NCBI GenBank assembly: GCA_013349325.1
Contig: DUZX01000035.1
Coordinates: forward strand, 1-41,355
Source of the DNA: Desulfuromonadales bacterium
Lineage (GTDB): Bacteria > Desulfobacterota > Desulfuromonadia > Geobacterales > Pseudopelobacteraceae
DNA: 41,355 bases
Reading direction: 5' to 3'
Shown one piece after another: positions 22,016 through 41,355 of this stretch. Both the position numbers and the translations under genes were made by a program. The notes under the pieces are model-generated. The model was not told where the DNA came from. It did not search any database and saw nothing but the letters and a program-made list of their open reading frames with translations. Every line of letters starts with the position of its first letter. The first letter of the stretch is position 1.

Positions 22016-23128
22016 ATGAAGAACACTGCTCGCATTCTAACCGTATTCGTCACAATCATACTCTGTGTCGCCTGTGCTCCCAAAAAAGAGAAACCGAAAA
22101 CAAAGCCTCCCGTGCCGGTCAAGGTTTCAAAGGCTTTACAGAAAGAGCTGCCGCTGCAGATCAAAACCATTGGTACTGTTGAGGCGATCAGCAGCGTTGC
22201 AATCAAGTCGCAGGTGAGCGGGCAGATCGCACGGCTGCATTTTACGGAAGGGAGCCATGTGTCAAAAGGCGCTCTGCTGGTCAGTATCGATCCGCAACCG
22301 TTCCAGGCGGTGCTGCATCAGGCTGAAGCGGCCCTTGCCAAGGATCAGGCCCAGGAAAAATTCGCCCGTGAACAGGCGCTGCGCTATGAGGGGCTCCTGA
22401 AAGAGGGCATCGTTACCCGCGACCAGTTTGATCTGTTGCGCTCCAATGCCGAGTCACTGGCAGCAACGGTTGCAGCTGACCGTGCTGTCATCAGAAATGC
22501 AAGAATTCAGCTCGATTACTGCTCCATCCGTTCCCCCATCTCCGGTCGGACGGGAAGTGTTACGCTTCAGCCGGGCAACCTGGTTAAGGCCAACGATCTG
22601 CCGATAGTAACGCTTAACCAGATCACACCTATTAATGTCATCTTCTCGCTTCCCGAAAAAAGATTACCCGAAATCAAGCGCGGCATGGCTGCCGGAAAAC
22701 TCAAGCTGCTGGCCGGCATCCCCAATGAGACCATCGCGGAGAGCAGCACGATAAATTTTCTGGATAATGCCGTCAACGCTGCGACCGGAACGATCAAGCT
22801 CAAAGCGGTGTTCGCCAACACGTCTCACAAGCTGTGGCCGGGGCAGTTTGCCGACCTTCTGATTACGCTCGACACCCGTAAAAACGCCGTTGTTATTCCG
22901 ATCCAGGCTGTGCAGACCGGCCAGCAGGGAGAATTTGTCTATGTCGTAAAAACGGATAACAAGGTCGAGCTGCGGCCGGTAACCTCGATTGCCATCGGTG
23001 ATGAAGCGATGATCGAAAAAGGCCTGGCAGCCGGCGAGACAGTCGTGATTGATGGTCAGCTGCGGTTGACGCCGGGTGTGACGGTTGAGACGGGGAATAA
23101 GCACACGATGGAAAAGGGAAAAAAATAG
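22016..23128 (+). CDS. RND efflux adaptor (MdtA/AcrA-like lipoprotein)
   Basis: A 370-residue adaptor. The hydrophobic N-terminus ends ILCVACAPKK, a somewhat atypical lipobox with C20 as the lipid-anchored residue. Then LPLQIKTIGTVEAISSVAIKSQVSGQI (lipoyl), a helical hairpin about 95-165, DYCSIRSPISGRTGSVTLQPGNLV (second lipoyl half), and the beta-barrel and membrane-proximal regions of the RND class (LNQITPINVIFSLPEKRLPEI). Its natural partner is the RND pump at 28946, now separated by 5.8 kb of restriction-modification genes. The hsdR start lies 3 bases after this stop and its ribosome site (AAAGGG) falls inside the last codons, so transcription of the foreign genes is probably driven by the efflux operon. 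Confidence 0.88.
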   Translation: MKNTARILTVFVTIILCVACAPKKEKPKTKPPVPVKVSKALQKELPLQIKTIGTVEAISSVAIKSQVSGQIARLHFTEGSHVSKGALLVSIDPQPFQAVLHQAEAALAKDQAQEKFAREQALRYEGLLKEGIVTRDQFDLLRSNAESLAATVAADRAVIRNARIQLDYCSIRSPISGRTGSVTLQPGNLVKANDLPIVTLNQITPINVIFSLPEKRLPEIKRGMAAGKLKLLAGIPNETIAESSTINFLDNAVNAATGTIKLKAVFANTSHKLWPGQFADLLITLDTRKNAVVIPIQAVQTGQQGEFVYVVKTDNKVELRPVTSIAIGDEAMIEKGLAAGETVVIDGQLRLTPGVTVETGNKHTMEKGKK

Positions 23129-23131
23129 TTT

Positions 23132-25534
23132 ATGAGCTATAACGAGGCAGAAACCCGCTACTACCTGATTGATCCGGTTTTGCGGGAGAAGGGTTACGAC
23201 TCTCACCAGTGGTTGAAGCTGGAAACACCTGCCCCGGTTGAGCCGACCGGCCCAAAAGGCAAACGGCGTAAAGGTTCAGGGCGTACCGATTATCTGCTCT
23301 GTGTTCAGGTTGGTGACATGCCCAAATCGTTGCCGGTGGCGGTACTTGAAGCGAAGAAAGAAACTGATGATCCATTGAAGGGTATGCAGCAGGCAAAAGG
23401 GTATATTGATCGCTATGATGTGAAGTATGTTTTTGCCACGAATGGCCACCGCTACGGTGAATATGACAAGTTCACTGGTCTGCAGGCCGGGCCGCACCCC
23501 TTTGTGGATTTCCTGGCACACCCTGATCTGACGGCACGTTATTCAAAAGATACCGGTATTGATGTTACCCTGCCCGAAGCAAAAAAACTCTTCATGCCGG
23601 ATAGCGCCGCCTACCCGGACTCCCGCTACTATCAGGATGCTGCCATTCGCGCGGCATTTGAGAAGATCATCCACTGTCGGCAGAATGGTGAACCTGCGCG
23701 TGTGCTCCTTAGTCTGGTAACCGGCGCTGGTAAAACGATTATCGCTGCTAATCTGTTGTGGCGTCTGCACGAGGCCGAAGATCTTCCCAAACCGGCCCTG
23801 TTCCTGTGTGATCGTGATGAGTTACGCGAACAGGCCTACAACAAACTGAGCGCCGTATTTGGTGATAATGCCCGGATAGTTAAAACGGAAAAGAGCCTGA
23901 ACGCCGCACGGAACGCCCGTATTCACATCGCCACGTACCAGACCTTGGGACTTGATGACGACACCGAAGAAGAAAAGATTGCCAGCTTCCTCACCGATTT
24001 CTATCCGCTTGACGCCTTCAGCGTTATCATCATTGATGAATGTCATCGTTCCGCCTGGGGGCGCTGGTCGGAAGTTCTCAAACGCAACCCGAATGCCATC
24101 CACATCGGCCTGACGGCGACGCCGCGCCAACTGCGCGAAGCAAAAAAGATAACCAGCGAAGATGAAGAAATTACCGCCAACAACCGGAAATATTTCGGTG
24201 AACCGGTCTACGAATACACCTTGATTCAAGCTCAGGAAGACGGCTATCTGGCCGCCTGTGAAATAGTCAAGCGCAAGCCGTCCATTGACAGCAAGATATT
24301 CACCAGAGAAGAAATACTTGCTGCCAAGCCGCTCGATATAAGAACCGGCAAGCCGATAACCGCTGAAGATCTTACCAAGAGCCAGTACAGCGGCAAGGAT
24401 TTTGACAACGAACTGTTTATCGACATGCGTACTCCCGCCATGTGTCAGGATCTCTTTACGTTACTCTGCCAGAATGGCGGTCCGGAACAAAAAGTCATCA
24501 TCTTCTGTACTCGCGAAATCCAGGCGGATCGTGTTGCCATGCGCATGAACAACCTTTACGCCACCTGGTGCAGGGAACAGGGCAGCACGCCGAAAGAGCA
24601 TTACGCCTTCAAGTGCATGGGGGGCAAAAACAACGGCAGCGACATGATCGAACCGATGCGCGGCTCCGGCGAACGGGCCTTTATTGCTTGTACTGTTGAT
24701 CTGCTGGAAGCCGGTGTCGATATTGAGCGCCTCAACGCGGTGGTGTTCTTTCGCTATCTGGAATCGCCGATCAAGTTTTATCAGATGGTGGGGCGCGGCA
24801 CCCGTATCCATGAAGAAACCAGCAAATACAAGTTCTGGCTCTACGACTACACCGGTGTTACCGATCTGTTCGGCACTGATTTTATTACTGATCCGCCACG
24901 TCCCGGTGGCAGTAGTTCTGGTGGCGGAACCGGCGGCGGTGATGGTGGTGGTGACGGTGGCGATCCTCCCGCAGTTGCAGAGCTATCAGGGCATTTTGTG
25001 AGCATAACGCCTCAAGGTCGCTTCATCCTCTGCAGCCGTGATGGTCGCGATGTGCCTATTCCGGTGGATGAATACCGGCGAGATATGGTTGCGCGGGTTT
25101 TGCAGGAAGCGCACACCTTGAACGAATTCCGGCAACTGTGGGTGGAAACGCAGAAGCGTCGTCAGCTGGTCAAGCATCTGCTGGAGAGCAATCTCAGCCC
25201 GGAGCTGATTCGCGAGATCGACCAGATGAATGACTGCGATATGTACGATGTGTTTGTGCACCACGGCTACCGTGCCAGCGCTTTCAAACGTTCGGAGCGC
25301 AACTGGCTTTATCTTGATAACAATCGCAGATGGTTTGAGGAAGCGAATCCGAAAGCGGCTACGGTACTAATGGAGCTGGGGCATCAGTTTGAAATAGGCG
25401 GCACTGAAGCGCTGGAAACACCGGCGTTATGGGATGTGCCTGAGATCAAGCTGGTTGGCGGATTTGATGCGTTGAAGTCTTTGGGGAAGCCGCCGCTGGT
25501 GATGCATGAGGCGAAGATGAGGTTATTTACGTGA
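23132..25534 (+). CDS. hsdR: type I restriction enzyme, R (motor and nuclease) subunit
   Basis: An 800-residue HsdR. The N-terminal nuclease domain shows D53 and E73-A-K75 (VLEAKKE), the PD-(D/E)xK arrangement. The SF2 motor has Walker A TGAGKT at 197-202, the DEAD-box variant DECH at 302-305, LTATPRQL just after, and motif VI QMVGRGTRIHE. After the helicase there is a Gly/Ser/Asp-rich flexible linker (about 590-612), then a C-terminal assembly domain. It translocates DNA toward the M2S complex and cuts at collision. At 800 residues it is shorter than EcoKI R and like the EcoEI-type subunits. No lesion is seen. It is followed directly by a paired palindrome. Confidence 0.93.
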   Translation: MSYNEAETRYYLIDPVLREKGYDSHQWLKLETPAPVEPTGPKGKRRKGSGRTDYLLCVQVGDMPKSLPVAVLEAKKETDDPLKGMQQAKGYIDRYDVKYVFATNGHRYGEYDKFTGLQAGPHPFVDFLAHPDLTARYSKDTGIDVTLPEAKKLFMPDSAAYPDSRYYQDAAIRAAFEKIIHCRQNGEPARVLLSLVTGAGKTIIAANLLWRLHEAEDLPKPALFLCDRDELREQAYNKLSAVFGDNARIVKTEKSLNAARNARIHIATYQTLGLDDDTEEEKIASFLTDFYPLDAFSVIIIDECHRSAWGRWSEVLKRNPNAIHIGLTATPRQLREAKKITSEDEEITANNRKYFGEPVYEYTLIQAQEDGYLAACEIVKRKPSIDSKIFTREEILAAKPLDIRTGKPITAEDLTKSQYSGKDFDNELFIDMRTPAMCQDLFTLLCQNGGPEQKVIIFCTREIQADRVAMRMNNLYATWCREQGSTPKEHYAFKCMGGKNNGSDMIEPMRGSGERAFIACTVDLLEAGVDIERLNAVVFFRYLESPIKFYQMVGRGTRIHEETSKYKFWLYDYTGVTDLFGTDFITDPPRPGGSSSGGGTGGGDGGGDGGDPPAVAELSGHFVSITPQGRFILCSRDGRDVPIPVDEYRRDMVARVLQEAHTLNEFRQLWVETQKRRQLVKHLLESNLSPELIREIDQMNDCDMYDVFVHHGYRASAFKRSERNWLYLDNNRRWFEEANPKAATVLMELGHQFEIGGTEALETPALWDVPEIKLVGGFDALKSLGKPPLVMHEAKMRLFT

Positions 25535-25542
25535 CTCTCCTT

Positions 25543-25622
25543 CTCCCCCCTCCCGGCCTCCCCCCGCTGGGGGGAGGAGCTTTTAGTTCCCTCCCCAGGA
25601 GGGGGAGGGTTAGGGAGGGGGC
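25543..25622. repeat. paired GC-rich palindromes between hsdR and hsdS
   Basis: The left half, read on the minus strand, has stem CTCCTCCCCCC-AGC-GGGGGGAGG and the tail CCGGGAGGGGGG. The right half, on the plus strand, has CCCTCCCC-AGGA-GGGGGAGGG and the tail TTAGGGAGGGGG. Tails point outward. It begins 8 bases after the hsdR stop, and the tail runs into the ribosome site of hsdS. Same class as the elements at 26178-26288, 26676-26757 and 41271-41355. Confidence 0.85.
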
Positions 25623-25658
25623 TGGTGGAGATTATTGATGTGTGAGGTGGTTTCATAT

Positions 25659-26177
25659 ATGGAAAAAAGAATTGTAGAGCTTGGGGAAATATGCAAATTC
25701 GAGTATGGCACTAACCTGCCGGGGCGTATTCGTGTTCCTGGGGCAGTGCCTGTATATGGCTCAAATGGTGTTATTGGCACTCATTCAACTGCAATTACAT
25801 CTGGGCCGACGATTATTATTGGGCGTAAAGGTTCAATTGGAGAAATTCATCAATCAAATCAGCCTTGCTGGCCGATAGACACTACCTACTTTATTGATGA
25901 ATCATTCACTGACTGTGATCTTGATTGGCTTACTTACCAGTTGATCCATCTGAATTTATGTCGGTTAAATAAAGCCAGCGGTGTGCCTGGGTTGAATCGT
26001 GAAGATGCGTATAAGTTAGAAGTAATTCTGCCTTCGATTGAGCAGCAACGGAGTATTGCCGCATATCTTAAAGCCCAGCTCACCATCGTCGAAGAAGCAA
26101 GAATAGCAGCGAAAGCCCAACTCCAGGAAATCGAACAACTACCATCACGGCTACTTGCCCAGGCGTTCGAAACCTAG
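25659..26177 (+). CDS. hsdS: type I specificity subunit with a single target-recognition domain
   Basis: A 172-residue protein from ATG 25659 (MEKRIVELGEICKFEYG); ATG 25638 with a GGAG 7 bases upstream would add seven residues and cannot be excluded. It holds one target-recognition domain (VYGSNGVIGTH, GPTIIIGRKGSIGEIHQSNQPCWPIDTTYF) and one conserved helical spacer (LPSIEQQRSIAAYLKAQLTIVEEARIAAKAQLQEIEQLPSRLLAQAF). Normal HsdS proteins have two such halves and about 400 residues. Half-size S proteins can dimerise and recognise symmetrical bipartite sites, so this may be functional. Alternatively it is what remains after recombination. Base composition is more AT-rich in the recognition domain, which is usual for hsdS. 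Confidence 0.85.
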   Translation: MEKRIVELGEICKFEYGTNLPGRIRVPGAVPVYGSNGVIGTHSTAITSGPTIIIGRKGSIGEIHQSNQPCWPIDTTYFIDESFTDCDLDWLTYQLIHLNLCRLNKASGVPGLNREDAYKLEVILPSIEQQRSIAAYLKAQLTIVEEARIAAKAQLQEIEQLPSRLLAQAFET

Positions 26178-26288
26178 CTCCCCCCTCCCAGCCTCCCCCC
26201 GCTGGGGGGAGGAGTTGAAAACCGCAGTTTATTGAGATGTTTCGCAGTTCGTTCCCTCCCCCAGCGGGGGAGGGCTAGGGAGGGGGAG
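26178..26288. repeat. paired GC-rich palindromes between hsdS and the DUF559 gene
   Basis: The left half (26178-26215) is the minus-strand version, stem CCTCCCCCC-GCT-GGGGGGAGG with the tail CTGGGAGGGGGG when reversed. A 37-base middle follows, then the right half (26253-26288), stem CCCTCCCCC-AGC-GGGGGAGGG and tail CTAGGGAGGGGG. The left half begins at the base after the hsdS stop; the right tail provides the GGGGGAG ribosome-site-like run before the DUF559 start. Confidence 0.88.
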
Positions 26289-26298
26289 ATTTCGGCCC

Positions 26299-26673
26299 AT
26301 GGATAAAAAGCTCTTCATCCCCAAGCCAGTACCTGAACCGCTGCTCGCCGCTGCCCGTGCTCTGCGCGGAGCCATGACCGATGCCGAGCAGCTTTTATGG
26401 CACTGTCTCAGAAGGAAACAGCTCGGAGGATTCCGTTTCCGACGTCAACATCCGTTCGAGATGTACGTCCTTGATTTCTATTGCTGCGAAGCAAAGCTGG
26501 CGATAGAGCTTGATGGCGGACAGCACAATGAGCCTGAAGCTATTATCCGCGACAATATTCGAACCGAGTTTCTGGCAAAGCACGATATACAAGTACTTCG
26601 CTTCTGGAACAATGAGGTTTTCAAGAATCTGGAAGGTGTGTTACAGCGGATTTATGATGAGTTGAACAGGTAA
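26299..26673 (+). CDS. DUF559 (Vsr-like) endonuclease-domain protein
   Basis: A 124-residue protein of the DUF559 family, related to very-short-patch-repair and other PD-(D/E)xK nucleases. Helical start ALRGAMTDAEQLLWHCLR, then LGGFRFRRQHPFEMYVLDFYC, with D59, then LAIELDGGQH with E70, D72 and H76, and the end VLRFWNNEVFKNLEGVLQRI. These positions match the usual catalytic set, so it should be a nicking or cutting nuclease or a relative. It is bracketed on both sides by inverted pairs of GC-rich palindromes, and its ribosome site comes from the left one. In other genomes I recall DUF559 genes beside similar palindromes, pointing to a repeat-associated mobile unit. Within the type I locus it may have been carried in as cargo. 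Confidence 0.9.
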   Translation: MDKKLFIPKPVPEPLLAAARALRGAMTDAEQLLWHCLRRKQLGGFRFRRQHPFEMYVLDFYCCEAKLAIELDGGQHNEPEAIIRDNIRTEFLAKHDIQVLRFWNNEVFKNLEGVLQRIYDELNR

Positions 26674-26675
26674 CA

Positions 26676-26757
26676 GCTCCCCCTCCCTAGCCCTCCCCCG
26701 CTGGGGGAGGGGATCAATACTCCTCCACCCAGCGGGGGGAGGCCGGGAGGGGGGAGA
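26676..26757. repeat. paired GC-rich palindromes after the DUF559 gene
   Basis: The left half, reversed, reads CCCTCCCCC-AGC-GGGGGAGGG with the tail CTAGGGAGGGGGAG; the right half is CCTCCACCC-AGC-GGGGGGAGG with the tail CCGGGAGGGGGG. It begins 2 bases after the DUF559 stop. The left-half sequence here matches the right half of the pair upstream of DUF559, so the gene is flanked by oppositely oriented near-copies of one palindrome. Confidence 0.88.
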
Positions 26758-26778
26758 AGTGCAGGAGATAATTACACG

Positions 26779-26941
26779 ATGAGTAACGCCCTGATATCAC
26801 AATTGAACAGATTTTCGTATCAGTGTTACGACAATTGGAAGAGGAATTCGGCAAAGGTTTCAGTTATTCGGCGTTGACCCGAATGATCCGTTTACTGAGA
26901 TGTTTCCGGACGAAGCAATTGTTGTATCACAGTTACAATAA
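26779..26941 (+). pseudogene. remnant of a DUF1016 (YhcG/PDDEXK) gene
   Basis: ATG 26779 opens MSNALISQLN, the usual beginning of DUF1016 proteins, and then loses frame. In another frame, from about 26807, come FVSVLRQLEEEFGKGFSYSALTRMIR, and after a further one-base slip FTEMFPDEAIVVSQLQ, ending TAA 26939-26941. Intact members have about 350 residues with a nuclease domain at the C-terminus; only about 55 recognisable codons remain, with an internal deletion and at least two frameshifts. DUF1016 genes are often found inside type I restriction loci, which fits. The recognition rests on motif memory. Confidence 0.65.
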
Positions 26942-26950
26942 TTGATTTTA

Positions 26951-26956
26951 TATAAT
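26951..26956 (+). promoter_or_regulatory. possible -10 box before hsdM
   Basis: A perfect TATAAT 45 bases upstream of the hsdM start, in an AT-rich stretch just after the DUF1016 remnant. No good -35 is at the correct distance, so an independent hsdM promoter is only suggested. It would be useful, since three palindrome pairs separate hsdM from the upstream promoter. Confidence 0.3.
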
Positions 26957-27000
26957 TCTTGCCGAGAAAACGATATCGATTAAGGAACCAAAAAGAACCC

Positions 27001-28923
27001 ATGCCCAGACAGCAAAAAACAACGAAACAGGAAAAGCAGAAAAAAGCCAAAACCATATCATCAGCTCAATCGCTTTCTTCCTTCGTCAAGTCGATCTGCG
27101 ACATCATGCGCCGCTCCAACTGCGCCAGTGCACTGCAGTACGTTCCCGAGCTGACCTGGATTCTCTTTCTGCGTATTCTTGATGCCCAGGAAGAGAGGGA
27201 TCGCGAGGCTGCTGAGGCGGTGGGCGGGACGTTTTCCCCGGCGCTGGTCAGCCCTTTTCGCTGGCAGGATTGGGCCGCCCCATTTTCCGAAAAGCCTGAT
27301 CATCCCACTACAACAGAAGGAAAGCCGTTCGGTTGGAAGCGACAGGAGCTATTTGCCAAGGGGGACGGCAATCTGTTTGATTTCATCAACGCTGAACTGC
27401 TGCCGCATCTGCATGGCCTTGATATCGACTCCCGTACCGGTCTGCCCAATCCGGCTGCTTCGCGCAAACAGCGCATCATCGGGCGGATCATAACGGCTGT
27501 CGAGCGGGTTCGGGTGGATAGCGAAACCAATCTGCGTGACATCCTCGACAAGGTCCATGAGATCAGTATCGATAATATCGACGATACCCACTTCTTTACG
27601 CTGTCCCAGGTGTACGAGGATCTGTTGCTGAAAATGGGGGAGAAGAATTCCGATGGCGGCCAGTTTTTCACACCGCGAGAAGTCATCCGGGCAATGGTGC
27701 ATACAATTGATCCTCAACCGGGCGAAACAGTCTATGACCCCTGTTGCGGCACAGGTGGCTTTCTGGCGATAGCCTACGAGCATATTGCCCGTAATCAGGG
27801 GAGTTCACCCGCGTCAACAGACATTGATACACTGAAACATGACACTTTTTTTGGCCGGGAAAAGGAGAATCTTGTTTTCCCGATTGCTTTGGCAAACCTG
27901 GTATTGCACGGCATCGACCAGCCAAATCTCTGGCATGGCAACACCCTGACCAGGCGCGCTACTTACGGAGCACTCTTTGATAATGCTCCGAAAACATTTG
28001 ATGTCCTTCTGACCAACCCACCCTTCGGCGGCAAGGAAGGCAGCGATGCTCAGAAAAATTTTGCCTTTGAAACCGGATCCACTCAGGTCCTGTTCGTTCA
28101 GGACATTCTTGCTGAACTGGCTCCCGGTGGCCGCTGCGGGATAGTCCTTGACGAGGGACTTCTGTTTCGTACCAACGAAAGCGCCTTTGTGGAGACCAAG
28201 CGGAAGCTGGTGGATGAATGCAGCCTCTGGTGCATTATCAGCCTGCCGGGAGGAGTGTTTTCAACGGCCGGTGCCGGGGTCAAAACCAATCTGCTCTTTT
28301 TTACCGAGGGGAAGAAAACCGAGAAAATCTGGTATTATGATCTGTCACATATCAAGGTCGGCAAGAAAACACCCATGACGTTGGGACTTTTTGGCTTTGG
28401 TGCCGATGGTGAAACCCTTGACGACACTCTGCTGCCAGCAACGCTTACTGCGGATTGGCTGGAAGATGAAGCACACCAGGGTAAACCGTTTCCCAGCTAC
28501 GCCAGGCTGTTTTCAAGTCGCGGCACTCCGGCGGGCGAGAGCCGCTATTCATGGACCATTGATTTCGCTGATCGTCGTAAAATTGCCAGAGAGGAGATGC
28601 AGCCCTACCTTGAGGAAGCCGCTAAGCTAAAGGGTGATACGGTGACGCTCAAGGAAAAACTGAAGGTGCTCAGGAAAAACAGTGCTACCACAGCAGAGAT
28701 TGAAGCCGTTGAGTTAAAGATCAAAGAAACGGAAAAATCCTCTCGTGACGCGCAGGCAAAGGTAGACGAAATTGACGCTTCAGTATTCGACCTGAAAGCA
28801 GTTAATCCGAATGTCGTAACCAAGCGGGATGAACGTACCACAGACGAAATAATTGGAAACATCGAAGAGCAGGGAAAGATAGTTGTAAATGCCTTGAATA
28901 GACTGAAGGGGCTTCTGAAATGA
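27001..28923 (+). CDS. hsdM: type I DNA adenine methyltransferase, M subunit
   Basis: A 640-residue N6-adenine methyltransferase. Start ATG 27001 (MPRQQKTTKQ); an in-frame TTG at 26959 has no ribosome site. The N-terminal HsdM_N helical domain spans about 20-180 (SSFVKSICDIMRRSN ... YVPELTWILFLRILD). The SAM-binding motif is DPCCGTGGFL from residue 246, and the catalytic NPPF at 339-342 defines the gamma class. A coiled-coil C-terminus (about 540-600) fits S-subunit contact. It protects host sites from HsdR. Its position at the end, after S and DUF559, is unusual; M commonly comes before S. It appears intact. The RND pump begins 22 bases later. Confidence 0.93.
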   Translation: MPRQQKTTKQEKQKKAKTISSAQSLSSFVKSICDIMRRSNCASALQYVPELTWILFLRILDAQEERDREAAEAVGGTFSPALVSPFRWQDWAAPFSEKPDHPTTTEGKPFGWKRQELFAKGDGNLFDFINAELLPHLHGLDIDSRTGLPNPAASRKQRIIGRIITAVERVRVDSETNLRDILDKVHEISIDNIDDTHFFTLSQVYEDLLLKMGEKNSDGGQFFTPREVIRAMVHTIDPQPGETVYDPCCGTGGFLAIAYEHIARNQGSSPASTDIDTLKHDTFFGREKENLVFPIALANLVLHGIDQPNLWHGNTLTRRATYGALFDNAPKTFDVLLTNPPFGGKEGSDAQKNFAFETGSTQVLFVQDILAELAPGGRCGIVLDEGLLFRTNESAFVETKRKLVDECSLWCIISLPGGVFSTAGAGVKTNLLFFTEGKKTEKIWYYDLSHIKVGKKTPMTLGLFGFGADGETLDDTLLPATLTADWLEDEAHQGKPFPSYARLFSSRGTPAGESRYSWTIDFADRRKIAREEMQPYLEEAAKLKGDTVTLKEKLKVLRKNSATTAEIEAVELKIKETEKSSRDAQAKVDEIDASVFDLKAVNPNVVTKRDERTTDEIIGNIEEQGKIVVNALNRLKGLLK

Positions 28924-28945
28924 GAGAGAAGAAAAATAAAAATCG

Positions 28946-31900
28946 ATGAACATCGCCGCACTCTTCATCCGCCGTCCGATTATGACCTCGCTGGTTATGG
29001 TTGCGATCTTCATTTTCGGCGTCGTCTCCTATCGGCAGCTGCCGGTTAATGACCTCCCCAACGTCGATTTTCCGACGATACAGATCAATGCCAGCCTGCC
29101 GGGCGCCAACCCGGATACCATGGCGTCGGCGGTGGCGACTCCTCTGGAGAATCAGCTTTCCACCATTGCCGGCGTTGATTCGATGACCTCCACCAATGGC
29201 ATCGGCACGACCAGGATCACGCTGCAGTTCAATCTGGACCGCGATATCGATGCCGCCGCCCAGGATGTGCAGGCGGCTATCTCGCTGGCCACCCGCTCCC
29301 TGCCCAAAGACATGAAAACGCCGCCATCCTTCCGCAAGGTCAATCCGGCCGATCAGCCGGTGCTGTACCTGGCGCTCAACTCACCAACCCTGCCGCTCTC
29401 CGCCATTGACGAATACGCCCAAACGCTGATTGCCCGACGTATCTCGACGGTCAGCGGTGTGGCGCAGGTCAATGTCTACGGTTCTCAAAAATATGCGGTA
29501 CGCGCCCAGCTTGACCCGAAGGCGCTCGCCTCGCGGCAGATCGGCATTGATGAAGTGGCGAAGGCGATTGACGAGGCCAATGTCAATCTGCCGACCGGTA
29601 CCTTGGATGGTAGCCAGCAGGCGTATACCATCGAAACCGGTGGCCAGCTCTTCAAGGCGGCCGAATACCGTTCGCTGGTGGTTGCGTATCGCGACGGCTC
29701 ACCGGTTCGGCTGGAGGAACTCGGAAAAGTTATCGATTCGGTTGAAGACACCAAGCGGGCCGCCTGGTACAACGGCACGCGCGGGATTATCCTGGCGGTG
29801 CAGCGCCAACCGGGCACCAACTCCATTGAAGTGGTGGATAATGTCCAGAAACTGCTTCCCGATTTCCGCAGCAAGATGCCCGGTTCGGTTGAGCTGAATG
29901 TGCTTTTTGACCGTTCGATCCTGATCCGTGAATCGATGCACGACGTCAAGTTTACGCTGGTGTTGACGATCGGGCTGGTGATCATGGTGATCTTCCTGTT
30001 TCTGCGCAACCTGTCCGCCACGATTATCCCCTCGCTGGCGGTTCCGATGTCGATTGTCGGTACCTTTACGGTCATGCATCTGCTCGGTTTCTCGCTTAAC
30101 AACATCTCCATGATGGCGTTGACGCTGGCGGTCGGCTTCGTCGTGGATGATGCTATCGTCATGCTGGAGAATATCGTCCGGCATATCGAAAAGGGCGAAA
30201 GCGCCATGGAAGCCTCCTACAAAGGTTCCCGGGAGATCGGCTTCACAATTATCTCGATGACGATATCGCTGGTGGCGGTCTTTATTCCGGTGCTGTTCAT
30301 GGGCGGCATTCTGGGGCGACTGCTGCATGAATTTGCCCTGACGATCAGCGTTGCGATTCTGGTCTCCTGCTTCGTTTCGCTGACACTGACACCGATGCTC
30401 TGCAGCCGCTTTTTAAAACCGGCCGGTACGAAACAGCATGGTGCGATCTATATGGCCATGGAGCGCTTCTTTGACGGCTGGCTGAATTTGTATGAACGCT
30501 CCCTGAAGCTGGTACTCCGCTTTCGCCGGACGACGATGGTCGTGACGCTGCTGATTACGCTGCTGACGGTCTGGCTGTTCAGAATCATTCCGATGGGTTT
30601 CCTGCCGACCGAGGATACCGGACGGATCAATGCCGACATAGAAACCGCCCAGGGGACCTCTTTTGACAGCATGAAGCTGCATCAGGAGGCGGTGGCTGCC
30701 ATTATCGCACAAGACCCGAATGTCGAAGGCTTCATGTCCTCCGTCGGTGGTGGTCGCGGCACCAATGCCGGCAGTTTTTTTATCCGGCTTAAACCGAGGG
30801 GGCAGCGCACGCTCTCAGCAGATGAGATTATTCAGAAGCTGCGCCCCAAGCTGTCCAAAGTGCCGGGGGTCAAAGTGTTTCTGAAAAATGTTCCTTCGAT
30901 CCAGATCGGCGGCACCAGCTCCAAGAGCGAGTATCAGTTTACCCTGCAGGGGCAGGACACGGCCGAGTTGTACCGATCGGCAGCTGGTTTTGAGGTAAAG
31001 CTGCGCGAAATACCGGATCTGCTGGACGTTACCAGCGACCTACAGATCAGCAATCCGCAGGTTCATGTGGAACTTAACCGCGACAAAATAGCGGCGCTGG
31101 GACTCTCCGTTCTTCAGGTTGAGGATGCCTTAGGTTACGCCTATGGCTCGCGCCAGGTCTCCTCGATCTTTGCCCCGACCAATCAGTATCAGGTGATCCT
31201 CGAACTTGACCCGCTCTACCAGGGTGACTCGGCCGCGCTTGATATGCTCTATATCCGCGCTAAAAGCGGGCAGCTGATTCCGCTCGAAACGGTGGCGACG
31301 ATCTCCAAAACGATCGGCCCGTTGGCGGTCAATCATCTCGGACAGCTTCCGGCGGTAACGATTTCTTTTAACCTGCGTCCCGGTGTTGCCCTGGGGGATG
31401 CCATGCAGCTGGTCGACAAGCTGGCCGCTACGGCTCTCCCGGCGACGATCAGCACCAGCTTTCAGGGTACGGCGCAGGCCTTCCAGTCATCATTCAGCGG
31501 CCTCTGGATCCTGCTGGTCATGGCGATTTTCGTCATCTATATCGTGCTGGGAGTTCTGTACGAAAGCTACATTCACCCGATTACGATTCTCTCCGGTCTT
31601 CCGGCAGCCGGCTTCGGAGCGTTGATAACGCTGATGATCTTTGGCAGCAACCTCAATGTTTACGGATTTGTCGGCATCATCATGCTGCTCGGCATCGTCA
31701 AGAAGAACGCCATCATGATGATTGACTTTGCCCTGGAGGCCGAGAGAACAGAAGGAAAGAACCCGCTGGATGCGATCTATGAAGGGGCGATTGTCCGTTT
31801 TCGGCCGATCATGATGACTACCATGGCGGCTCTGATGGGGACGCTGCCGATTGCGATCGGCTATGGTGCCGGTGGGGAGTCGCGCCAGCCGCTCGGACTG

Positions 31901-32008
31901 GCGGTCGTGGGCGGTCTGCTGACCTCACAGCTGTTGACGCTCTATATTACGCCGGTGGTCTATTACTATATGGATCGCCTGTTGAAGAAATTAACTACGG
32001 TGAAATAA
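28946..32008 (+). CDS. RND multidrug efflux pump (HAE1, MdtB/MdtC-like)
   Basis: A 1020-residue inner-membrane pump of the AcrB class with 12 segments and two large periplasmic loops. It begins MNIAALFIRRPIMTSLVMVA, and the proton-relay aspartates D401 and D402 are in GFVVDDAIVMLENI in segment 4, with the partner lysine in GIVKKNAIMM in segment 10. The sequence SLPGANPDTMASAVATPLENQL is closest to the MdtB/MdtC group. It should take substrates from the periplasm or outer leaflet using proton flow, with the adaptor at 22016 as the cognate partner. The weak ribosome site (GAGAGAAG) lies in the 22-base gap after hsdM. Confidence 0.92.
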   Translation: MNIAALFIRRPIMTSLVMVAIFIFGVVSYRQLPVNDLPNVDFPTIQINASLPGANPDTMASAVATPLENQLSTIAGVDSMTSTNGIGTTRITLQFNLDRDIDAAAQDVQAAISLATRSLPKDMKTPPSFRKVNPADQPVLYLALNSPTLPLSAIDEYAQTLIARRISTVSGVAQVNVYGSQKYAVRAQLDPKALASRQIGIDEVAKAIDEANVNLPTGTLDGSQQAYTIETGGQLFKAAEYRSLVVAYRDGSPVRLEELGKVIDSVEDTKRAAWYNGTRGIILAVQRQPGTNSIEVVDNVQKLLPDFRSKMPGSVELNVLFDRSILIRESMHDVKFTLVLTIGLVIMVIFLFLRNLSATIIPSLAVPMSIVGTFTVMHLLGFSLNNISMMALTLAVGFVVDDAIVMLENIVRHIEKGESAMEASYKGSREIGFTIISMTISLVAVFIPVLFMGGILGRLLHEFALTISVAILVSCFVSLTLTPMLCSRFLKPAGTKQHGAIYMAMERFFDGWLNLYERSLKLVLRFRRTTMVVTLLITLLTVWLFRIIPMGFLPTEDTGRINADIETAQGTSFDSMKLHQEAVAAIIAQDPNVEGFMSSVGGGRGTNAGSFFIRLKPRGQRTLSADEIIQKLRPKLSKVPGVKVFLKNVPSIQIGGTSSKSEYQFTLQGQDTAELYRSAAGFEVKLREIPDLLDVTSDLQISNPQVHVELNRDKIAALGLSVLQVEDALGYAYGSRQVSSIFAPTNQYQVILELDPLYQGDSAALDMLYIRAKSGQLIPLETVATISKTIGPLAVNHLGQLPAVTISFNLRPGVALGDAMQLVDKLAATALPATISTSFQGTAQAFQSSFSGLWILLVMAIFVIYIVLGVLYESYIHPITILSGLPAAGFGALITLMIFGSNLNVYGFVGIIMLLGIVKKNAIMMIDFALEAERTEGKNPLDAIYEGAIVRFRPIMMTTMAALMGTLPIAIGYGAGGESRQPLGLAVVGGLLTSQLLTLYITPVVYYYMDRLLKKLTTVK

Positions 32009-36181: not shown

Positions 36182-36266
36182 TCCCCCTTGATAAAGGGGG
36201 ATTTAGGGGGATTCGCTTCTGAATCTACAATCAAATCCCCCCAGCCCCCCTTTATCAAGGGGGGAG
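36182..36266. repeat. paired palindromes (TCCCCCTTGATAAAGGGGGA type) between cysD and cysN
   Basis: The first copy has 8-bp arms TCCCCCTT-GATA-AAGGGGGA (36182-36201) and the tail TTTAGGGGGATT. The second, oppositely oriented, ends near 36266. A 30-base middle lies between the tails, which point inward. The layout (stem-loop plus a TAGGG-containing tail, in inverted pairs) is the same as that of the DUF559-linked repeats, although the stem sequence differs. Confidence 0.8.
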
Positions 36267-41270: not shown

Positions 41271-41355
41271 GCTCCCTCCCCCCTGGCGGGGGAGGGTTAG
41301 GGTGGGGGGGAGGTTGCCATGAAAGTACTCCGTTGCAGCTTCCCCCACCCCCTGC
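41271..41355. repeat. paired GC-rich palindromes at the window end (second copy incomplete)
   Basis: The first copy is CCTCCCCC-CTGGC-GGGGGAGG with tail GTTAGGGTGGGGGG (about 41274-41312). After a 27-base middle the reverse of such a tail begins (CCCCCACCCCCTGC, 41342-41355) and is cut off by the window end. The tails point inward here, as in the cysD-cysN pair, unlike the outward ones around hsdS and DUF559. Confidence 0.78.

Follow-up and report, generated by a model that had tools for sequence, protein, structure and literature searches.

Why does a small nuclease gene lie between paired palindromes inside a restriction operon? The question is raised by contig DUZX01000035.1 of a Desulfuromonadales bacterium (GCA_013349325.1; 3.58 Mb genome). 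The window analyzed here is this one contig of 41,355 nucleotides. Its type I restriction operon contains hsdR, a half-size hsdS, a gene of the DUF559 family and hsdM, in that order. Our analysis indicates with very high confidence that the DUF559 nuclease and its hairpins form one genetic unit. We hold with strong confidence that the unit is mobile, and with moderate confidence that it moves by a homing-type mechanism. The nuclease may act on the hairpins, as we infer. As a whole, the data are probably best explained by a single mobile element family, composed of DUF559 and its flanking hairpins, with homing-like spread. Architecture, association, co-variation, dispersal, in-frame insertion and scattered occurrence at one RecG site are the observed parts of this explanation.

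The palindromes between the operon genes are GC-rich and form three pairs (25543-25621, 26178-26288 and 26677-26759; Table 1). Each half is composed of a stem and a tail that repeats the stem in mirror order. The two halves adjoining DUF559, 2b and 3a, form a perfect 35-nt inverted repeat, with both tails pointing to the gene. The outer halves of the same pairs (26178-26215 and 26719-26756) match at 95% over 38 nt. The window contains 5 matches to the pattern CCTCYCCCN{2,6}GGGRGAGG, four at this locus, and none of 100 dinucleotide shuffles reaches 5. The genome contains 20 hairpins of this pattern in total. A looser pattern, CCCCTCCCNNNCCTCCCC with 2 mismatches, gave 42 matches in the genome and 37 for its reversed control, and was replaced by the hairpin pattern. 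A preliminary description of the locus had placed palindromes 8, 0 and 2 bases behind the stops of hsdR (25534), hsdS (26177) and DUF559 (26673), each palindrome consisting of two stem-and-tail halves. The first two distances hold and the third is 3 bases. The stem-plus-tail test is passed by five of the six halves, and the sixth (about 26729-26748) contains a stem mismatch. The stem-tail spacers in the window are CCG, TTA, CTG, CTA and CTA.

The window protein matches only PF04480 and PF18741 (DUF559 Pfam E-value 2.1e-37), and its best named relatives are from Desulfuromonadales and Geobacter-type bacteria. D59, E70, D72 and H76, described earlier as kept, are invariant across 25 aligned homologues, as is D85. 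Fold prediction places the protein closest to a Neisseria DUF559 structure, the homing endonuclease I-Bth0305I and Vsr, in a PD-(D/E)XK/Vsr-like class. PDB sequence matches besides 3hrl had E-values of at least 0.16 and were treated as chance. Unlike the EDxHD homing endonuclease I-Bth0305I, DUF559 is found without an intron or intein and is flanked by hairpins with dispersed gene-less copies. It is also only 124 aa long, with no added DNA-binding region. Unlike Vsr, the very-short-patch-repair endonuclease, it is bracketed by dispersed repeats; no tie to a particular cytosine methylase was seen, and no systematic search for one was made.

The palindromes flanking DUF559 are the known BoxC/PIT/TM intrastrand-triplex repeats, with the same sequence and architecture. 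They share the purine/pyrimidine hairpin, the mirror-repeat third strand and the short second loop, and the E. coli pairs correspond to the unit without its gene. Since the tail mirrors the stem, each end of the unit would be able to fold as an intrastrand triplex. Such folding has been reported for the E. coli motif in vitro (PMC4666352). To extend the comparison to other bacteria, we used 80 named DUF559 loci, the best 80 of 534 confirmed among at least 589 matched stretches in a genome scan with a 25-sequence alignment. A mirror tail is present in 97 of the 128 nearest hairpins at these loci, compared to 10.4 with shuffled flanks. The E. coli repeats have been known since the 1990s and are tied to genome instability without a known cause; their origin is described as unclear, and the genes flanking them are reported to have no shared function (PMC4666352). 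Enterobacter sp. 638 is reported to contain 100 copies of CCCTCTCCCXX(X)GGGAGAGGG (PMC2869309). The partner gene proposed here, DUF559 (ycjD in E. coli), distinguishes our units from the repeats as known from the literature covered, where no partner gene is named. The main text of PMC4666352 does not contain the words ‘DUF’, ‘Vsr’ or ‘endonuclease’. No link of DUF559 to BoxC/PIT/TM repeats was found in the literature, which was covered mostly through open access, and a report elsewhere is possible. The published E. coli inverted pairs each combine a type A and a type B repeat (5 of 5). No excess of this combination is seen elsewhere (12 of 24 and 20 of 59 pairs, with shuffled means of 10.7 and 22.4).

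Similar DUF559-palindrome neighborhoods had been suggested for other genomes, and our survey indicates that they are the rule. A pyrimidine-rich palindrome is located within 200 bp of DUF559 at 69 of the 72 loci with enough flank, and on both sides at 49 of 72. Eight shifted control positions gave a palindrome at 2-4 of 58-71 loci, and on both sides at none. The 80 loci come from Proteobacteria, Desulfuromonadales, Chloroflexi, Nitrospirae, Verrucomicrobia, Melainabacteria, Wirthbacteria, Caldisericia and others. Over the 200 bp preceding the match, hairpins occur at 4.9 per kb, compared to 2.7 per kb over the 200 bp following the stop of the frame and 0.25-0.44 at 1-3 kb. The nearest upstream tail points towards the gene in 35 cases and away in 10 (16 unclear), and the nearest downstream tail in 39 and 5 (13 unclear). 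Among 29 further loci of the window's class, 25 contain a palindrome with a recognized tail within 250 bp, on either side and in either orientation, and two contain none; both nearest tails point inward in 13 of those 25. The palindromes could instead be transcription terminators or other regulatory hairpins located by chance at gene ends. In the window they lie close behind stop codons, and a role in termination is presumed in PMC2869309. However, palindromes are also found upstream of DUF559 and within open frames, and PMC4666352 cites work that found no promoter or terminator activity for PIT elements. We regard this explanation as highly improbable. The restriction operon is not essential to the arrangement either. 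Restriction or DNA-methylase genes account for 8 of the 17 scanned host frames described below, and for one of the eight upstream neighbors matched by Pfam at free-standing loci. A restriction-modification setting is thus frequent but not required.

The repeats are also associated with DUF559 at the level of whole genomes. We counted matches to DUF559 (PF04480) and to the hairpin pattern across the same 277 genomes, in which the pattern occurs 4920 times and the reversed pattern 85 times. The 135 genomes with a strong DUF559 match (E-value under 1e-20) have a median of 11 hairpin copies, with 12 at zero. In the 130 genomes lacking a match the median is 0, with 67 at zero. Twelve genomes with weak matches were kept apart from the comparison. 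In the 20 genera holding both kinds of genome, the difference is in the expected direction in 16, opposite in 3 and tied in 1, and none of 5000 within-genus permutations reaches the observed value. Local copies have a mean of 1.37 per DUF559 locus (30 loci). Once these were subtracted, the observed value was reached by 8 of 2000 permutations. With larger subtractions per gene it was reached by 40 of 2000 (2 copies), 392 of 2000 (3 copies) and 3374 of 5000 (4 copies). The repeat excess anticipated in DUF559-positive genomes is therefore present and survives subtraction of local copies, but is no longer seen if at least 3 copies per gene are subtracted. Exceptions also exist, as 25 of the 130 DUF559-free genomes contain at least 5 copies, with a maximum of 127. 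One genome without DUF559 by the PF04480 search (G008) contains 56 hairpins, part of them in tails-inward pairs; hairpins were listed at six of its repeat sites. When 14 control genomes were searched with PF04480, E. coli was unmatched, although MG1655 YcjD matches it with an E-value of 1.4e-49. Y1_Tnp is present in 242 of the 277 genomes, which would be compatible with a Y1 transposase (RAYT or IS200/IS605) spreading the repeats with DUF559 as a passenger. However, the number of Y1 genes correlates only weakly with repeat copies (0.15, compared to 0.56 for DUF559), and one genome without a Y1 match contains 126 copies. A Y1 driver is very improbable.

Stem and nuclease sequences change together. 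Across 102 loci, stem distance tracks protein distance (r 0.31; 0 of 1000 permutations). The co-variation, predicted in the preliminary description, also holds when loci from different host groups are compared (Mantel r 0.26; 0 of 1000 permutations). Joint transfer of the gene and its flanks would also yield co-variation, so stem types were tallied over the whole genomes of 26 DUF559 carriers. Where it is predicted (four genomes), the GC-extended stem has 30, 38, 12 and 2 copies; eight other genomes have 1-14 and 14 have none. Two of these eight genomes were seen to carry an additional DUF559 with the GC-extended stem (L174 and L186). The TTA-extended stem has 5, 3 and 10 copies in the three genomes where it is predicted and 2 in a single further genome, and is absent from 22. 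Stem types thus recur genome-wide mostly where the nuclease type predicts them.

The units are not restricted to intergenic regions. At 30 of the 80 loci, DUF559 is located within an open frame longer than 300 aa. In 10 of the 17 frames scanned with Pfam, host domains are found on both sides of it. These hosts are MetH (L041), HsdR (L042), MetG (L087), MmeI (L090), RecG (L105) and HrpA-type helicases (L047, L049, L050, L056 and L058). The other seven frames, which encode methylases, a type ISP enzyme and a Mur ligase, have host domains on one side only. No self-splicing (Hint) family is among the Pfam matches of the 17 in-frame proteins at an E-value of 1e-5. In the RecG of L105, the unit is placed between LALRDKG and TPHLLMMSATPIPR. 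Visual inspection of the ends of 16 loci and of E. coli hrpB-mrcB alleles showed no evident target-site duplication, and the in-frame inserts have no exact empty DNA allele. Clean insertion sites were also sought in 12 aligned regions of one genus, in which the intergenic spaces are too variable.

PF04480 is carried by 15 RecG and 27 MetG proteins among the 120 best listed homologues of each. These sequences came from similarity searches with DUF559-bearing queries, which favor similar nucleases. Of the 120 RecG sequences, six were left out, five because DUF559 lay elsewhere or was unplaced and one because it lacked anchors. In the remaining 114, the loop is empty in 97, contains DUF559 in 10 and contains palindrome remnants, by a pattern of our own, in 7. 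On the RecG tree, the DUF559 state takes 10 changes, at least 8 on supported branches, not fewer than with shuffled labels (9.7). For the MetG tree the count is 18 changes, of which at least 9 are supported, and shuffled labels need more (24.6). On a DUF559 tree based on few columns, the RecG-site nucleases take 2 changes (shuffled 9.8), the 28 MetG-site nucleases 4 (26.1) and the 5 HrpA-site nucleases 2 (4.9). Host and nuclease distances correlate in MetG (r 0.48; 0 of 2000 permutations; n=27) and not significantly in RecG (r 0.23; 336 of 2000; n=10). By these tree changes and correlations, the fixed host sites reflect movement or repeated loss, together with descent, and the sequences do not separate gains from losses. 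Carriers of DUF559 are spread over the RecG tree, and their inserted nucleases fall almost into a single clade, a distribution that would be expected of homing.

These insertions bear on the possibility that DUF559 is a Vsr-like host repair nuclease, which trims or repairs hairpins and is kept beside them without moving them. The predicted Vsr-like fold is consistent with this role, and a Caulobacter DUF559 protein has been linked to DNA damage in cells without a cytosine methylase (PMC12907096). Neither the in-frame insertion into unrelated host genes nor the scattered occurrence at one RecG site is explained by it, however, and we consider it decidedly unlikely.

In E. coli MG1655, a DUF559 protein is encoded by ycjD (1351407-1351760), and the published TM number 9 (1351204-1351239) is located 167 bp beyond its stop. 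By the positions and strands in Table 1 of PMC4666352, the stem-tail...tail-stem arrangement applies to four of the five published inverted pairs, and its reverse to one. In three pairs that we compared, common bases extend past the hairpins, giving an estimated unit of ~107-120 bp. In strain 118UI, the 3' flank of ycjD agrees with the right end of each of the three BoxC units, including bases outside the hairpin (scores 60-68; best of 300 shuffles 24). In MG1655, where this flank is shortened, the scores are 32-36 (best shuffle 27). Judged from sequence, ycjD ends in the right terminus of a BoxC unit. The units vary between strains. Among 39 chromosomes listed for hrpB-mrcB, 24 are full length and 15 shorter; of four shorter alleles examined, three contain no unit and one a collapsed single hairpin. 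At alx-sstT, the pair is collapsed in one strain and another strain has unrelated sequence, and at ygfF-gcvP the unit plus its surroundings is absent in one strain. Collapse of an inverted pair into a single hybrid hairpin was observed at hrpB-mrcB and alx-sstT (L274 and L275), and such collapse has been termed the ‘palindrome effect’ (PMC4666352).

The ycjD terminus also bears on an explanation in which the repeats are older and spread otherwise, and DUF559 is a selfish homing nuclease landing in pre-existing palindromes. The DUF559-free genomes with at least 5 copies are consistent with it, and the seven palindrome-only RecG loops could be landing sites. However, most RecG loops contain neither palindrome nor DUF559, stems fit the nuclease type genome-wide, and the ycjD flank matches BoxC termini beyond the hairpin itself. 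We consider this explanation unlikely.

In the mobile element family that we favor, the gene-bearing unit would be arranged stem-tail-DUF559-tail-stem, with each end able to fold as an intrastrand triplex. The gene-less copies would be the dispersed BoxC/PIT/TM repeats, which in E. coli form stem-tail...tail-stem units of roughly 100 bp. Beyond this architecture, catalysis, the target of recognition and the copying step are inferred. The Vsr/EDxHD-type DUF559 protein would most likely recognize either the recipient site or the structured ends, and would nick or cut the DNA. Repair of the break would then copy the unit to a new place, as in homing. Ends compatible with the reading frame would let the unit reside inside coding genes.

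The REP/BIME-RAYT system is the closest working model. RAYT genes are low in copy number, with dispersed gene-less REP/BIME copies and repeat-enzyme co-variation reported (PMC2817692). In both systems, a small nuclease-type gene of low copy number is bracketed by inverted tailed palindromes that are also dispersed in the genome without the gene, and repeat and enzyme co-vary. Unlike in RAYT units, the enzyme here is DUF559/Vsr-like instead of a Y1 (HUH) transposase, the tail mirrors the stem, and units are found in frame in host genes. The parallel with RAYTs drawn in the preliminary description is thus a good working model, although the defining Y1 enzyme is absent and the enzyme unrelated, and the earlier interpretation is partly supported overall. 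Rickettsia palindromic elements are likewise inserted in frame in coding genes. To our knowledge, they are gene-less and have no nuclease partner.

A wider reading, which we give close to an even chance, is that these units represent a bacteria-wide class of mobile elements with no relation to RAYTs or classical insertion sequences. In such an element, a Vsr/EDxHD nuclease flanked by two inward-tailed triplex-forming hairpins would home in frame into housekeeping genes and leave palindrome-only scars. The gene-less derivatives would include E. coli BoxC/PIT and thousands of repeats elsewhere, with ycjD as the E. coli survivor. Our results provide a candidate partner gene, and hence a testable mechanism, for the E. 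coli BoxC/PIT/TM repeat family, and a possible role for the uncharacterized ycjD and a large DUF family. They also point to a second, chemically unrelated form of the REP/RAYT lifestyle, as well as to a mobile unit that can reside within enzymes like RecG and MetG because it can be read in frame.

Table 1. Features of the restriction operon and its palindrome halves in the window
Feature	Position	Strand	Remarks
hsdR-like gene	23132..25534	+	context
Palindrome half 1a	25543..25577	-	tail-stem; tail 25543-25554, stem 25557-25577
Palindrome half 1b	25589..25621	+	stem-tail; stem 25589-25609, spacer TTA, tail to 25621
hsdS, half-size	25635..26177	+	context; 180 aa, one Methylase_S domain, between halves 1b and 2a
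Palindrome half 2a	26178..26212	-	tail-stem; begins right after hsdS stop
Palindrome half 2b	26254..26288	+	stem-tail; left end of DUF559 unit, tail towards gene
DUF559 (PF04480) nuclease gene	26299..26673	+	124 aa; predicted Vsr/EDxHD-like fold
Palindrome half 3a	26677..26711	-	tail-stem; right end of DUF559 unit
Palindrome half 3b	26719..26759	+	stem-tail; one stem mismatch; 95% inverted match to 26178-26215
hsdM	26959..28923	+	context

Several additional features are found around the operon. The half-size hsdS is bracketed by stem-tail and tail-stem halves (25589-26213) like DUF559, and because of this it may be the cargo of a unit. HlyD-type and AcrB-type genes, identified by Pfam, flank the restriction operon (22016-32008), as if it had been placed into an efflux operon. 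The region before hsdM (26779-26940) looks by eye like a broken gene remnant, its frame containing three stops. The genome contains a second small DUF559 gene (C7), which adjoins a DNA-methylase gene and is surrounded by hairpins of another stem type. The methylase gene beside it reads through hairpins in its own frame (L001 8-1408). Further tailed palindromes are found in the window at 36245-36264 and 41274-41296.
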